From positions 1-35,602 of the forward strand of contig CALGDE010000033.1 of NCBI GenBank assembly GCA_937883785.1: DNA of 35,602 nt, given 5' to 3'. How positions within the stretch are numbered: the first letter of the stretch is position 1; every line of letters starts with the position of its first letter. Shown one piece after another: positions 3,442-35,440 of this stretch. The translations under genes were made by a program, and so were the position numbers. Under the pieces are notes generated by a model. It was given only the letters and a program-made list of their open reading frames with translations. It was not told the origin of the DNA and ran no database searches. This DNA comes from an uncultured cyanobacterium (GTDB taxonomy: Bacteria > Cyanobacteriota > Cyanobacteriia > CACIAM-69d).

Positions 3442-3873
3442 ATGGTCTTAATTTGGCTGCTAATCGCCCTTGGACTAATCGCCATTGAACTGGTGGTGCC
3501 GACAGCATTTGTGTCAACGGTAATGGGCGTTGCGGCCCTGGGCGTCGCGGCATTATCCCTGGTATTTCCATGGGTGGCCGGCCAAATTGTGGTGTGGATG
3601 TTGGCATCGGTGGGCTTAGCCTGGGGCACCCGCCGCTGGGTCAAGCTTTCCGGTGTTAAAAACAACCACTGGGATCCTGTCGAAGCCGAAACCTTAACGG
3701 AAATCCCGGCAGGACAGTCCGGGCGTGTGCTTTATGACGGCGGTTCCTGGCGGGCCCTGTGTGCAGACGAAACCCAGGCGATCGCCCCTGACGCCAAGGT
3801 TTACGTGGTAGGTCGCAAAGGCACCACCTTACTGGTCGTTCCCCAAATCAATGCCCTACCTTACACGCCCTAA
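3442..3873 (+). CDS. NfeD-like membrane protein (short form)
   Basis: The 143-residue protein has two or three hydrophobic helices in its first half (about residues 1-65) and a soluble second half with the small OB-like beta fold of NfeD C-terminal domains (for example AGQSGRVLYDGGSWRALC). NfeD proteins usually partner SPFH/stomatin-like proteins in membrane microdomains, and the gene is usually beside one; no SPFH gene is adjacent here. The ATG at 3442 is preceded by AAGGG at a good spacing. It converges on the nuclease-like gene with only a 32-bp gap and no evident terminator. Confidence 0.8.
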   Translation: MVLIWLLIALGLIAIELVVPTAFVSTVMGVAALGVAALSLVFPWVAGQIVVWMLASVGLAWGTRRWVKLSGVKNNHWDPVEAETLTEIPAGQSGRVLYDGGSWRALCADETQAIAPDAKVYVVGRKGTTLLVVPQINALPYTP

Positions 3874-3905: not shown

Positions 3906-5075
3906 TTATCCAAGGTCATCGCGCAGTTGCCAAAAAGAGTCTTCCTCCGTAACCAGTTTGATTAACCTGTTGGTTTCGTCGTAGAAGCGATCGCCCTGCT
4001 CTTCCCCAGTTTGAGCCCCCGCCAACACCTCCAGCAGCGGCTTTCTGAGGTAAATCGGACGCCAATAATGGTGTCCCAGTCTGCTGTACTCATCAATCGT
4101 TGGGTCCACCAGGCACCTGTAAAGCTCCCACCCATCATCCAGCGCCGCCACCTTCCCTGAAAGACGCTTTACCAATTGAGTGTAATTTGGGTTAGTCAAA
4201 TATTGGCGATGAACACTTTCGTCGAACTCTAAAATCAAGCAACAGTCAGGACCTTTATCAAGGTGAGACGGCGTAAAACCGTACTGGTCTCCGTCCACAT
4301 CAACGCCCACATAAATCCCAGGGTAATATCCATCAAGAAGCTGGATGCCAATTTTTCCATGTTCTTGACCAGGATAATATCCATACCTTTCATTCCAGCC
4401 GTTTTGCAATCCCGGCATGACTTTTTTGTAGTCTTTCTGAATATAAGTAGACCAATTTCGCATTAGAACTCGCCGCACAAGTTCACTAATCGTTCTTTTC
4501 AAATTTGATGAGGCGTAATAATATCTCATCGCTTCAGAAGAAATCGGCGCTGGCGGTCCCATTCCCTCCTCTTGAATCAGCTCTAGAAAGTCATCGAAAA
4601 CAAAAAGAGATGGGTCCGAATTATCCTTACGCCAACGTTCAATAATCTGACAAACATCGCTCCAACACAGGGCTATATCGAAGTTTTGACCATGCTGGCG
4701 AGTTGACGCCGTAATTAAAACCACAGAACTATTTGCAAAATTGCTTTCAGCATAATTTCGATAGTTATCGAGCTGGTTTTCATGAAGGGAACTCCAGGTT
4801 TTATGCTCGAAAATAATTGCTTTTTCTTCCGAAAGATACACCATGTCAGGAAAAAAGCCGTCGAAGCCACATTGCGTATTCCACTCGCCTTTTTCTTTAT
4901 TAATATCAATCCAATTTTCTGGCGATCGCGCCTGAAGTTCCCGAAGAAAAAAAACAGAAAAATCAGGATGCTTACGTAAAATCCAAGCAAACGCTTCCGT
5001 TATAAAATTTTCCAAAGGATCGTGTCCCTCGCGAGGGCGGTACTTTCTTAGGGATGACAAAAGACCGTTGCCCAT
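3906..5075 (-). CDS. PD-(D/E)XK nuclease superfamily protein, orphan
   Basis: The 389-residue product starts with a helix containing LENFITEAFAWIL (E22), then FPDMV (D77) and IIFEHKTW (E90, K92), followed by QLDNYRNY (Q101). This E...D...ExK...QLxxY order matches the catalytic layout of the PD-(D/E)XK nuclease superfamily, as in restriction-like and defence-associated enzymes. The C-terminal two thirds (about 180-389) is a mixed region I do not recognise. The gene is visibly AT-richer than its neighbours, although two HIP1 octamers (near 3988 and 4922) suggest it is not very recent. No methyltransferase, ATPase or other defence partner is adjacent. The target (DNA, RNA or neither) cannot be told. 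Confidence 0.65.
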   Translation of the reverse strand: MGNGLLSSLRKYRPREGHDPLENFITEAFAWILRKHPDFSVFFLRELQARSPENWIDINKEKGEWNTQCGFDGFFPDMVYLSEEKAIIFEHKTWSSLHENQLDNYRNYAESNFANSSVVLITASTRQHGQNFDIALCWSDVCQIIERWRKDNSDPSLFVFDDFLELIQEEGMGPPAPISSEAMRYYYASSNLKRTISELVRRVLMRNWSTYIQKDYKKVMPGLQNGWNERYGYYPGQEHGKIGIQLLDGYYPGIYVGVDVDGDQYGFTPSHLDKGPDCCLILEFDESVHRQYLTNPNYTQLVKRLSGKVAALDDGWELYRCLVDPTIDEYSRLGHHYWRPIYLRKPLLEVLAGAQTGEEQGDRFYDETNRLIKLVTEEDSFWQLRDDLG

Positions 5076-5236: not shown

Positions 5237-5539
5237 CTACCAGCTAGACTTAACCACACCGGGAAGCAAACCCTTGTGAGCCATATCCCGCAAAGCGTTG
5301 CGGCACAGACCAAAGTCCCGGTAATACGCCCGAGGACGACCGGTCAACCAACAGCGATTGCGGTGACGGGTGCGAGAGCTGTTGCGAGGTAGACGCTGAA
5401 TCTTACGGTGCAGATTAAGCTTCTCGAGGGGATCCGTCGCCTTCTCAAACTCTTCCTTTAAAGCAGCTCGCTTGGTGGCGTATTTTGCAATAAGGCGATC
5501 GCGCTTTTTCTCGCGCTCCACCATGGACTTTTTAGCCAT
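5237..5539 (-). CDS. rpsN: 30S ribosomal protein S14
   Basis: This 100-residue basic protein matches full-length bacterial/plastid S14 from [13 protein letters not shown] through [19 protein letters not shown] to the C-terminal LPGVVKSSW. It binds 16S rRNA in the head of the small subunit. It is the long, zinc-independent form: the paired CxxC motifs of the short form are missing. It stands alone, outside an S10/spc-type ribosomal operon, as is usual in cyanobacteria, and has its own terminator downstream. Confidence 0.97.
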
Positions 5540-33550: not shown

Positions 33551-35440
33551 ATGCCCCAGCCAAAAAAGCTTACGGAAATACAGCGTGAGAAGCTTGCTGT
33601 CAACGAAATTGAATCGGCAACTTGCGAAATTCGTGAGCTTTTCAAAGAAATTCTCCCAGAGGGACTGCCACAGGCAACGTTAACTGTTGCTTACGCAATT
33701 ATTGCCGACTTGGAGGAAGCAAGTCAGCGTGTAGCTGATGGTCGAATCTTAGTAGCGATTGTTGGAGGAAGAGGGGGCGGTAAGTCTAGCTTTATCAATG
33801 CAATACTGAATTACAACTTGCTTCCAGAAGGTCCTGTCGAAGCATGTACAACCTTCCCTGCAATAGTTAGTTTTTCCACACAGCACGAACTTAAAGTGGA
33901 TTCAGAGAATCCAAAGTACTGCACACAATTGGAGGAACTAAGTCGTTCCGATCTCAAGAATACTCTTCGCCACCTTCTTGATGAAGAGTTTAATCGCGAT
34001 AACGTTAAGCGGCTGAAAAGTGTAAATGTGGGGGTCCCAGAGAATATCTTGCGGCGTATTGAGCTTGCGGATGTTCCAGGATTTACTCTAGGCAACAAGC
34101 GTCAGCAGCTGTTAGCTGAAAGATACTCTACACAAAAGGCTGATCTGGCATTGGTACTCCTCAACAATGCTGATTCCGTCGAAATTAGAGGTATTGGAGG
34201 TCTTGATGGATTAGCAAGTTGCTTTAAAAATCGTTTAAAGTCCACAATATTCATTGTCAATAAAGCGGATGAAGATGAGTCGCTTGAGTACTTTGAGAAA
34301 CTAAAGCATCGGTTCATCGGAATGCTTCAAACACATGGAGCTGATACAAGTGATGTTCGCGTATACGCAGTTTCCGCTCGTGCAACTTTAAAAAAGTGGT
34401 CGAACACTTATGAATTCGATAAGATTCTCCGTGATTTTGTTGCTATCTCAGGGCAAAGTAGAGTCTTTGCCGCTGCGGGCTCATTTGATCGCGTTGCTGA
34501 TTCTCTTTCTGCTTTATGTATCTTGTGTAGAAAAGACAGAGACGTACTTCTTGAGTTGCGTGAAAGATTGGTTCAGCTATCACAGGTTGAACTCCACGCG
34601 CACGCGGACAGAATTCAAGACTTACTTTTATACAAGGGAATTATCGAAGCTCAGCGTCCTCCAAAAGTTGACTTTCATGATCTTGCTTTGCCCCTCCCAA
34701 ATTCATCGGAGCTCCCTGCAAACTACACAAGTCGGCTATTTCGGCATATTCAAGAAGATGGAGCTCGGATTGTAAACAGGAAGGTAGAGAATTATTTGGC
34801 TGACATCGAAGAAGGTTTGAGATGCGTACTCGAAAAGAGAACAAGCGAAGTCGCAACTCGGGTAAAGATGAGAGTAGAGGAAATTGAAGACCGGTTTGGT
34901 ATTCGTGGCGAAGTTTCGATCCCCAGAATTCCAAATGGTAGGACTGATTACGAATTTGACGACAATCTCGTTTCTCACTTGAAGCCTCGAAGGCATCGTA
35001 TACTTCTTGAGAAGCTGCTGCCTTTTGAGTGGCTACATCGCAGTATTGCACTACCTATTTTTGATAAGGCAACTATACAAACGCTTGTGGGTGGAGTTGA
35101 ATTGGATTTCGGCTCTGAGGAGGCTGATAGCGCAGATGAAGGAAGAGGGCTATTGAAAAGCACGGCTAAGCAGATGCAAGAGGCTTATGAGAGGTGCAGT
35201 AGAGGCACCGCAAAAATGTCCAATATACACATCAAATTCGTGAGTGAAAGTCACGTGGGTAGACTTCTGCGTGATTATGAGAATGCCTATCGTGAATACG
35301 TTGACGAGTGGGAGGACTGGCTTGGCAGGTATCAAAACCTGGTTGATTTAGCACTTCGCGTCAGTAGCAATGAAGTTCAGAAGAAGATCACTGATGCCGC
35401 TAAAGGGCTTCGTTACCGCGCAAACAGACTCAGACATTAG
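33551..35440 (+). CDS. Dynamin-like large GTPase
   Basis: The GTPase domain has G1 GGRGGGKSS (72-80), G2 threonines T100/T101 (ACTTFPAIV), G3 DVPGF (174-178), G4 VNKADED (N237, D240) and G5 SAR (275-277). Residues about 300-460 and 540-600 are helical with likely coiled-coil stretches, the expected middle and effector region of dynamin family proteins. There is no transmembrane segment. The P-loop has G76 where dynamins have serine in GxxxSGKS. Bacterial relatives include CrfC/YjdA, LeoA and BDLPs, some of which act in stress response or phage defence. The gene is AT-rich relative to its neighbours and I see no HIP1 octamer in it, which suggests recent transfer. No partner lies within the window. 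Confidence 0.75.
   Translation: MPQPKKLTEIQREKLAVNEIESATCEIRELFKEILPEGLPQATLTVAYAIIADLEEASQRVADGRILVAIVGGRGGGKSSFINAILNYNLLPEGPVEACTTFPAIVSFSTQHELKVDSENPKYCTQLEELSRSDLKNTLRHLLDEEFNRDNVKRLKSVNVGVPENILRRIELADVPGFTLGNKRQQLLAERYSTQKADLALVLLNNADSVEIRGIGGLDGLASCFKNRLKSTIFIVNKADEDESLEYFEKLKHRFIGMLQTHGADTSDVRVYAVSARATLKKWSNTYEFDKILRDFVAISGQSRVFAAAGSFDRVADSLSALCILCRKDRDVLLELRERLVQLSQVELHAHADRIQDLLLYKGIIEAQRPPKVDFHDLALPLPNSSELPANYTSRLFRHIQEDGARIVNRKVENYLADIEEGLRCVLEKRTSEVATRVKMRVEEIEDRFGIRGEVSIPRIPNGRTDYEFDDNLVSHLKPRRHRILLEKLLPFEWLHRSIALPIFDKATIQTLVGGVELDFGSEEADSADEGRGLLKSTAKQMQEAYERCSRGTAKMSNIHIKFVSESHVGRLLRDYENAYREYVDEWEDWLGRYQNLVDLALRVSSNEVQKKITDAAKGLRYRANRLRH

Follow-up and report, generated by a model that had tools for sequence, protein, structure and literature searches.

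Shedu is a single-gene system in which one protein joins one PD-(D/E)XK nuclease domain to one other domain. According to a review (PMC12904381), binding of DNA ends relieves the autoinhibition of the Shedu nuclease, and in EcSduA the DNA-end-binding clamp is N-terminal. In type I restriction operons, the space separating hsdS from hsdR has been described as a site for defence genes, DarTG2 among them (PMC12255303). The gene for the anticodon nuclease PrrC is embedded in the prr operon, whose type IC enzyme, EcoprrI, holds PrrC (PMC3874165). Here we compare with these systems a cyanobacterial nuclease gene, hereafter X, and the family to which it belongs. A further point of comparison is PDC-S26, which from its PADLOC name we take to be a candidate phage defence gene of the PDDEXK_4 type. 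In the literature searched, we found no paper on the X family and none on PDC-S26.

X was analysed in the window, the whole 35,602-nucleotide stretch of contig CALGDE010000033.1 (Table 1). Upstream of it lie the rpsN-like gene and an ftsH-like gene, and beyond the NfeD-like gene downstream there is a protein-phosphatase-like gene, the names of the ribosomal, ftsH-like and phosphatase-like genes being taken from reading of the sequences. The original prediction had described X as AT-richer than its flanks and as standing alone, with no partner such as a methyltransferase, and both points were borne out. X had a G+C content of 0.446; the window as a whole has 0.526, rpsN 0.541 and the NfeD-like gene 0.574. 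Reading of the window's long open reading frames recognised no methyltransferase, other partner gene or defence gene beside X, and no hsdM, hsdS or hsdR in the window. Among the 23 window genes compared, X had the lowest G+C, tied with a dynamin-like gene, and its first 170 codons were the AT-richer part (0.414 versus 0.471). Two of the window's 55 HIP1 octamers lie inside X, so the gene is not foreign in every respect; it may have been resident for some time or have derived from a related genome. A sigma-70 promoter scan returned 0 sites versus 2.0 in shuffles, and terminator-like sites were at chance level. Elsewhere in the window, the dynamin-like GTPase gene (33551-35440), with the same G+C of 0.446, has no HIP1 site, and its third-position G+C (0.39) is the lowest of the 23 genes. 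At the edge of the contig, a frame on the reverse strand (14-925) has an nSTAND1 NTPase domain, the match being limited to positions 3-149 of a profile of 379; with its stop only 14 bases away from the end of the contig, the frame appears to encode a truncated protein.

Table 1. Coordinates of X, its domains, motifs and neighbours in the window, and the copies of the family
Feature	Position	Strand	Basis or remark
X, PD-(D/E)XK nuclease-type gene, 389 aa	3906..5075	(-)	Open reading frame and translation, ATG start; 71% identical same-genus copy at the same place
N-terminal restriction-endonuclease-like domain, residues 1-170	4566..5075	(-)	AlphaFold2 model, VIA-align, PDC-S26 match
E22 codon (helix-1 glutamate)	5010..5012	(-)	Invariant 9/9
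D77 codon (PD motif)	4845..4847	(-)	Invariant 9/9
E90-H-K92 codons ((D/E)XK motif)	4800..4808	(-)	E90 and K92 invariant 9/9; middle H is N in L010
Q101 codon	4773..4775	(-)	Invariant 9/9
C-terminal alpha/beta domain, residues 172-389, without sequence family	3909..4562	(-)	Modelled alone
rpsN-like small ribosomal protein gene, upstream neighbour	5237..5539	(-)	Named by reading the sequence; order kept in G001
NfeD-like gene, downstream, convergent	3442..3873	(+)	PF01957, E 9.2e-12
X copies, window (genome G000) and G001			Cyanobacterial
X copy L010, Candidatus Parabeggiatoa			51% identity
X copy L011, Colwellia			Gammaproteobacterial
X copy L012, Pseudoalteromonas			Gammaproteobacterial
X copy L007, Pseudoalteromonas plasmid			Gammaproteobacterial; truncated
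X copy L013, Marinomonas			Gammaproteobacterial
X copy L014, Alginatibacterium			Gammaproteobacterial
X copy L015, Shewanella mangrovi			Gammaproteobacterial
X copy L006, Shewanella baltica plasmid			Gammaproteobacterial; plasmid typed as conjugative
X copy L029, genome G634			Gammaproteobacterial; in the order of G418

The catalytic layout that had been proposed, E22, D77, E90-x-K92 and Q101, was found in the translation exactly as quoted, and these residues together with Q68 were invariant in the nine aligned full-length members, a set that includes the window protein and leaves out L029 and the N-terminally truncated L007, both of which are in the tree. An AlphaFold2 model of X built with eight sequences (mean pLDDT 76.6, pTM 0.62) placed helices at residues 20-35 and 101-112 and strands at 64-67, 78-81, 85-92, 115-122 and 134-137. 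Residues 20-137 of the model therefore run helix, three strands, helix, two strands, which is the order of the PD-(D/E)XK core, and the restriction-endonuclease-like core on which the original prediction depended was recovered by structure prediction. With the conserved E...PD...(D/E)XK...Q set lying on this modelled core, X can be placed in the PD-(D/E)XK superfamily as a predicted nuclease. The best VIA-align match of the N-terminal part was R.BspD6I2 (2p14; Z 7.5, rmsd 3.2 over 114 residues), just under the Z of 8 that is the tool's caution level. Other matches, also below Z 8, included the BspD6I nickase, EndoMS, Can2, McrBC, FokI and more nucleases; proteins of unknown function ranked second (1y88) and also high (1xmx). 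The leading matches of the N-terminal part are thus mostly nucleases of one fold, in agreement with the motif despite Z values below 8. In Foldseek, neither the full model nor the C-terminal model had a match at E ≤ 0.001, a result that does not exclude families absent from its lists; the top rows for X, starting at E 0.019, were the restriction enzyme MspJI. A sequence comparison of X with solved structures gave nothing meaningful. On the modelled core and its motif, X is predicted to cut nucleic acid, most likely DNA.

We found that the nuclease core could be assigned more closely than the rest of the protein. X scored below the curated cut-off of Pfam PDDEXK_4 (PF14281; 13.5 bits versus 22.3, E 0.069), and eight of nine members matched this family at E ≤ 0.1 (best 4.8e-6). 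PADLOC PDC-S26 matched residues 77-150 of X through positions 106-184 of its 397-position profile (E 5.4e-7), and a match to this core at E ≤ 0.001 was seen in all nine aligned members; L029 matched as well, and the truncated L007 did not. The full profile of about 400 residues was not covered, the C-terminal part of X being unmatched. Six distant proteins from the same phylum match PDC-S26 more strongly than X does, five of them nearly along the whole profile. When X was compared with these six by profile-profile alignment, the nuclease core was related with a probability of 96% over 80 columns, whereas the C-terminal domain reached only 0.2%; by sequence, the kinship of X with PDC-S26 is thus confined to the core, and the second domain is a different one. 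A further difference is that a WYL-type gene was read at or near four of the six distant proteins (L030, L031, L034 and L035), while the window X has none. The L035 gene was confirmed as WYL/WCX by Pfam. NCBIfam and PHROGs gave no match to X, and the Pfam matches TPR_INTS8 and L_protein_N, being below cut-off, were set aside as chance. With Shedu, X shares the single-gene arrangement of one PD-(D/E)XK domain plus one other domain; the order is different, the nuclease being N-terminal in X where EcSduA has its clamp. Pfam searched up to E 10 gave no match of X to SduA_C (PF14082), and X as a Shedu protein was rejected for this reason.

None of Pfam, PADLOC, NCBIfam and PHROGs gave an accepted match for the C-terminal part of X, as had been anticipated for the last two thirds of the protein. 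Strictly speaking, X is nevertheless no orphan, since relatives exist. Modelled alone, the domain was well defined (pLDDT 82.3, pTM 0.84), and an alignment of eight sequences had 12 invariant columns in this part. Its best structural match in VIA-align was a Bacillus subtilis putative protein (Z 7.0). The type III secretion chaperones Spa15, SicP, InvB and CesT, together with DUF1054 and YbjN, matched as members of one fold group at Z 5.9-6.9 over 121-148 residues with 7-11% identity, all below the trust level of Z 8 and without a sequence match. Next came MotA, Atg10 and two uncharacterised proteins (Z 5.3-5.5), and then kinases and Arp2/3 at about 4. The chaperone-like fold is accordingly a lead from the model and not a result, and a sensing role for the domain is suggested by analogy only.

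The family is small, with 11 copies in total including that of the window (Table 1); this count leaves aside the partial matches, namely L008 and the six distant same-phylum proteins. A profile search of the phylum produced matches at E ≤ 1e-5 in 7 of the 386 genomes sampled, the window's own being the only strong match and the other six partial and centred on the nuclease core. In the order of G418, 4 of 394 genomes matched, three of them known before (G418, G420 and G421) and the fourth being G634. No relatives were found in IMG/VR with single-protein and alignment queries, which used few short peptide patterns and could miss distant relatives, or in phage records with two queries. These data indicated that the family is rare and patchy. 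One copy is probably decayed: L007 (11899-12861) lacks the N-terminal part and the catalytic motif and adjoins HipA/HTH and WYL genes.

Within its own genus, X is present in both genomes searched, and the copy of G001 retains the gene order with rpsN. A search of four genomes from other genera of the family (G002-G005) did not find it. No empty insertion site was found; since in those four genomes the NfeD-like gene is on another contig than rpsN, the exact insertion of X cannot be drawn. Comparison of the window with G001 gave a dN/dS of 0.15 for X over 381 codons (nuclease half 0.146, C-terminal half 0.152); these values come from a Nei-Gojobori type count and are rough, as dS of X exceeded 1. 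For rpsN, NfeD and part of ftsH the corresponding values were 0.03-0.08. Both halves of X are thus under purifying selection, which speaks against a chance reading frame or a relic, and X evolves faster than rpsN, NfeD and the ftsH part.

Five of the 11 copies (L006, L011, L012, L014 and L015) occupy the hsdS-hsdR gap of a type I restriction operon, the same kind of position as that of prrC and DarTG2, whose proteins appear, from their named families, to be unrelated to X; the cyanobacterial X lies outside any such operon. Pfam confirmed HsdM in L011, L012, L014 and L015, HsdS in L012, L014 and L015, and HsdR in L011 and L012. The HsdR of L014 and L015 was identified by 69-71% identity and the HsdS of L011 by reading, and the L006 operon follows the annotation of the record. 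These five copies are encoded with hsdM, hsdS and hsdR, as a type I subunit would be, and the window copy is not. The stop of X overlaps the start of hsdR by 4 bp in four of the five; in L015 a SLFN_AlbA_2 gene intervenes. Companion genes encode a DUF4268 protein in L011 and an FRG protein in L012. The FRG-domain protein (L012:8681-9985) has a T1RH-like_C domain in common with the C-terminus of HsdR, a domain through which accessory proteins might attach themselves to the type I enzyme. The four HsdR proteins compared from embedded loci belong to one close lineage (69-81% identical to L012 HsdR). In a maximum-likelihood tree of X the operon label needs two changes, forced by well-supported branches, with two forks open; the tree does not distinguish gains from losses of the operon position. 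Because of this and the single HsdR lineage, the embedded copies may represent few independent acquisitions.

The slot before hsdR was then surveyed within this one HsdR lineage. Of 388 genomes sampled from the order, 33 had HsdR relatives at E ≤ 1e-250, and 30 loci were returned. The gene directly before hsdR was scanned with Pfam or otherwise identified in 20 of the 30; seven loci lay outside the scan (L063, L073, L075, L077, L078, L081 and L085) and three had no upstream frame (L066, L070 and L082). It was of the SIR2_2 type in four (L060, L071, L072 and L084), Fic in three (L061, L065 and L083), DUF4268 in three (L064, L069 and L074), SduA of Shedu in one (L079), ThsB-TIR in one (L086), X itself in two (L051 and L054), SLFN_AlbA_2 with X next in one (L053, where the assignment is that of the corresponding L015 scan), hsdS in two (L067 and L076) and a gene without any Pfam family in three (L062, L068 and L080). 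SIR2 and Fic proteins have defence roles, and the anti-phage status of the SduA and ThsB slot genes is taken from their Pfam family names. Given this variable content, X is one of several interchangeable cargoes of the slot, some of them from established anti-phage families; in L079 the slot is filled by a Shedu gene.

The remaining six copies stand alone (the window, G001, L010, L013, L029 and L007). The Parabeggiatoa copy adjoins what looks, by reading, like a toxin-antitoxin pair; an AAA_21 gene follows at a greater distance. In Marinomonas (L013, 1902-13485), X has an AAA_13 gene adjacent on one side and, on the other, Tn7-like genes of the TnsA and TniB types, of which the closest is at about 3.5 kb; it is possibly transposon cargo. 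The neighbourhood of L007 contains HipA, HTH, WYL and recombinase genes. Around L029, reading recognised no defence gene nearby, and the neighbours look ordinary. The original prediction was staked on homologues occurring near defence or mobile genes, and they do, in type I operons, on a conjugative plasmid and in a Tn7-like neighbourhood.

The L012 HsdR was used to search nine genomes. It was found at 69-100% identity in all four that carry an embedded X (G417, G418, G420 and G421), while G000, G001 (93% complete), G416 and G419 (no completeness given) had none and G634 had a distant HsdR at 34% identity, so that this type was not found in four of the five searched genomes with a full-length stand-alone X. 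X therefore appears to persist without that HsdR, and because HsdR of this type was not found in its genome, the cyanobacterial protein probably works alone; the searches speak for the L012-type HsdR only. A PF04313 search of the window's own genome gave three matches, all in short frames of 149-215 aa, which ruled them out as full hsdR genes.

The reading that best explains these data, at a probability of about 0.6, is that X is a self-contained single-gene defence nuclease, a sensor-nuclease of the Shedu kind. Its N-terminal PD-(D/E)XK domain (residues 1-170) would cut nucleic acid, most likely DNA, and its C-terminal domain (172-389) would sense or hold the target and restrain the nuclease until it encounters DNA of a phage or plasmid, or else a protein of the phage; sensing would be coupled to cutting as it is in Shedu. 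In marine gammaproteobacteria the module rides as cargo between hsdS and hsdR, and in the cyanobacterium it would act on its own. Nuclease activity, a DNA target, autoinhibition and restriction of phages or plasmids are predicted properties. We infer the defence role from association, and it is more secure than the mechanistic details. The suggestion that X is a single-gene defence system or a new nuclease subfamily remains the best-supported reading, with the amendment that the core is already covered by the PDC-S26 candidate family. Support for it is also partial because five of the 11 copies, though not that of the window, sit in a methyltransferase-bearing operon. A bolder form of the idea is unlikely: X would belong to an undescribed single-gene defence family in which the PD-(D/E)XK nuclease is switched on when a YbjN/secretion-chaperone-like domain binds a phage protein or peptide, not DNA ends, and which moves between a free-standing life and the type I operon slot.

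An abortive-infection toxin is a comparably doubtful explanation. X would then be a latent DNA or RNA nuclease freed by phage takeover in the manner of PrrC and EcoprrI, with the C-terminal domain as the holding or sensing part. SIR2_2, Fic and ThsB-TIR proteins, the types that fill the same slot, elsewhere kill or arrest the cell, and the position of X in type I operons parallels that of prrC in the prr operon (PMC3874165). However, the L012-type HsdR was not found in the genomes of the two cyanobacterial, the Parabeggiatoa and the Marinomonas copies, so holding by that enzyme cannot be general, and the modelled core looks like a DNA restriction fold. We consider it clearly less probable still that X has no part in defence and serves DNA repair or recombination. 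The structural matches do include EndoMS and Holliday junction resolvases, other proteins with PD-(D/E)XK folds, and X sits between housekeeping genes and is present in both searched genomes of its genus, but a very patchy distribution (one strong match, the window's own, in 386 genomes of the phylum, 4 of 394 in the order of G418, none of four same-family genomes of other genera) and the copies in restriction operons and on a conjugative plasmid argue against it. Just as improbable is a reading in which X modifies the type I enzyme as an accessory component, such as an additional cutting subunit brought in by HsdR, HsdM or HsdS; the cyanobacterial copy would then be a stranded relic or the partner of another enzyme. 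The 4-bp overlaps with hsdR and the T1RH-like_C domain that the L012 FRG slot protein shares with HsdR would fit such a subunit, and more distant HsdR types were sought in the cyanobacterium through PF04313 only, with its short frames. Against this, the cyanobacterial X is under purifying selection with no match of that HsdR in either cyanobacterial genome, and the slot content is highly variable, unlike a required subunit.

These comparisons connect a cyanobacterial gene that had no annotation with a rare family of nucleases for which there is good guilt-by-embedding evidence of a role in defence. The hsdS-hsdR slot exchanges known effector types (Shedu, SIR2, ThsB-TIR and Fic) for uncharacterised ones, and so provides a short, testable list of candidate new defence genes. 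If the C-terminal domain is indeed a chaperone-like sensor, X would represent a new way of arming a nuclease.
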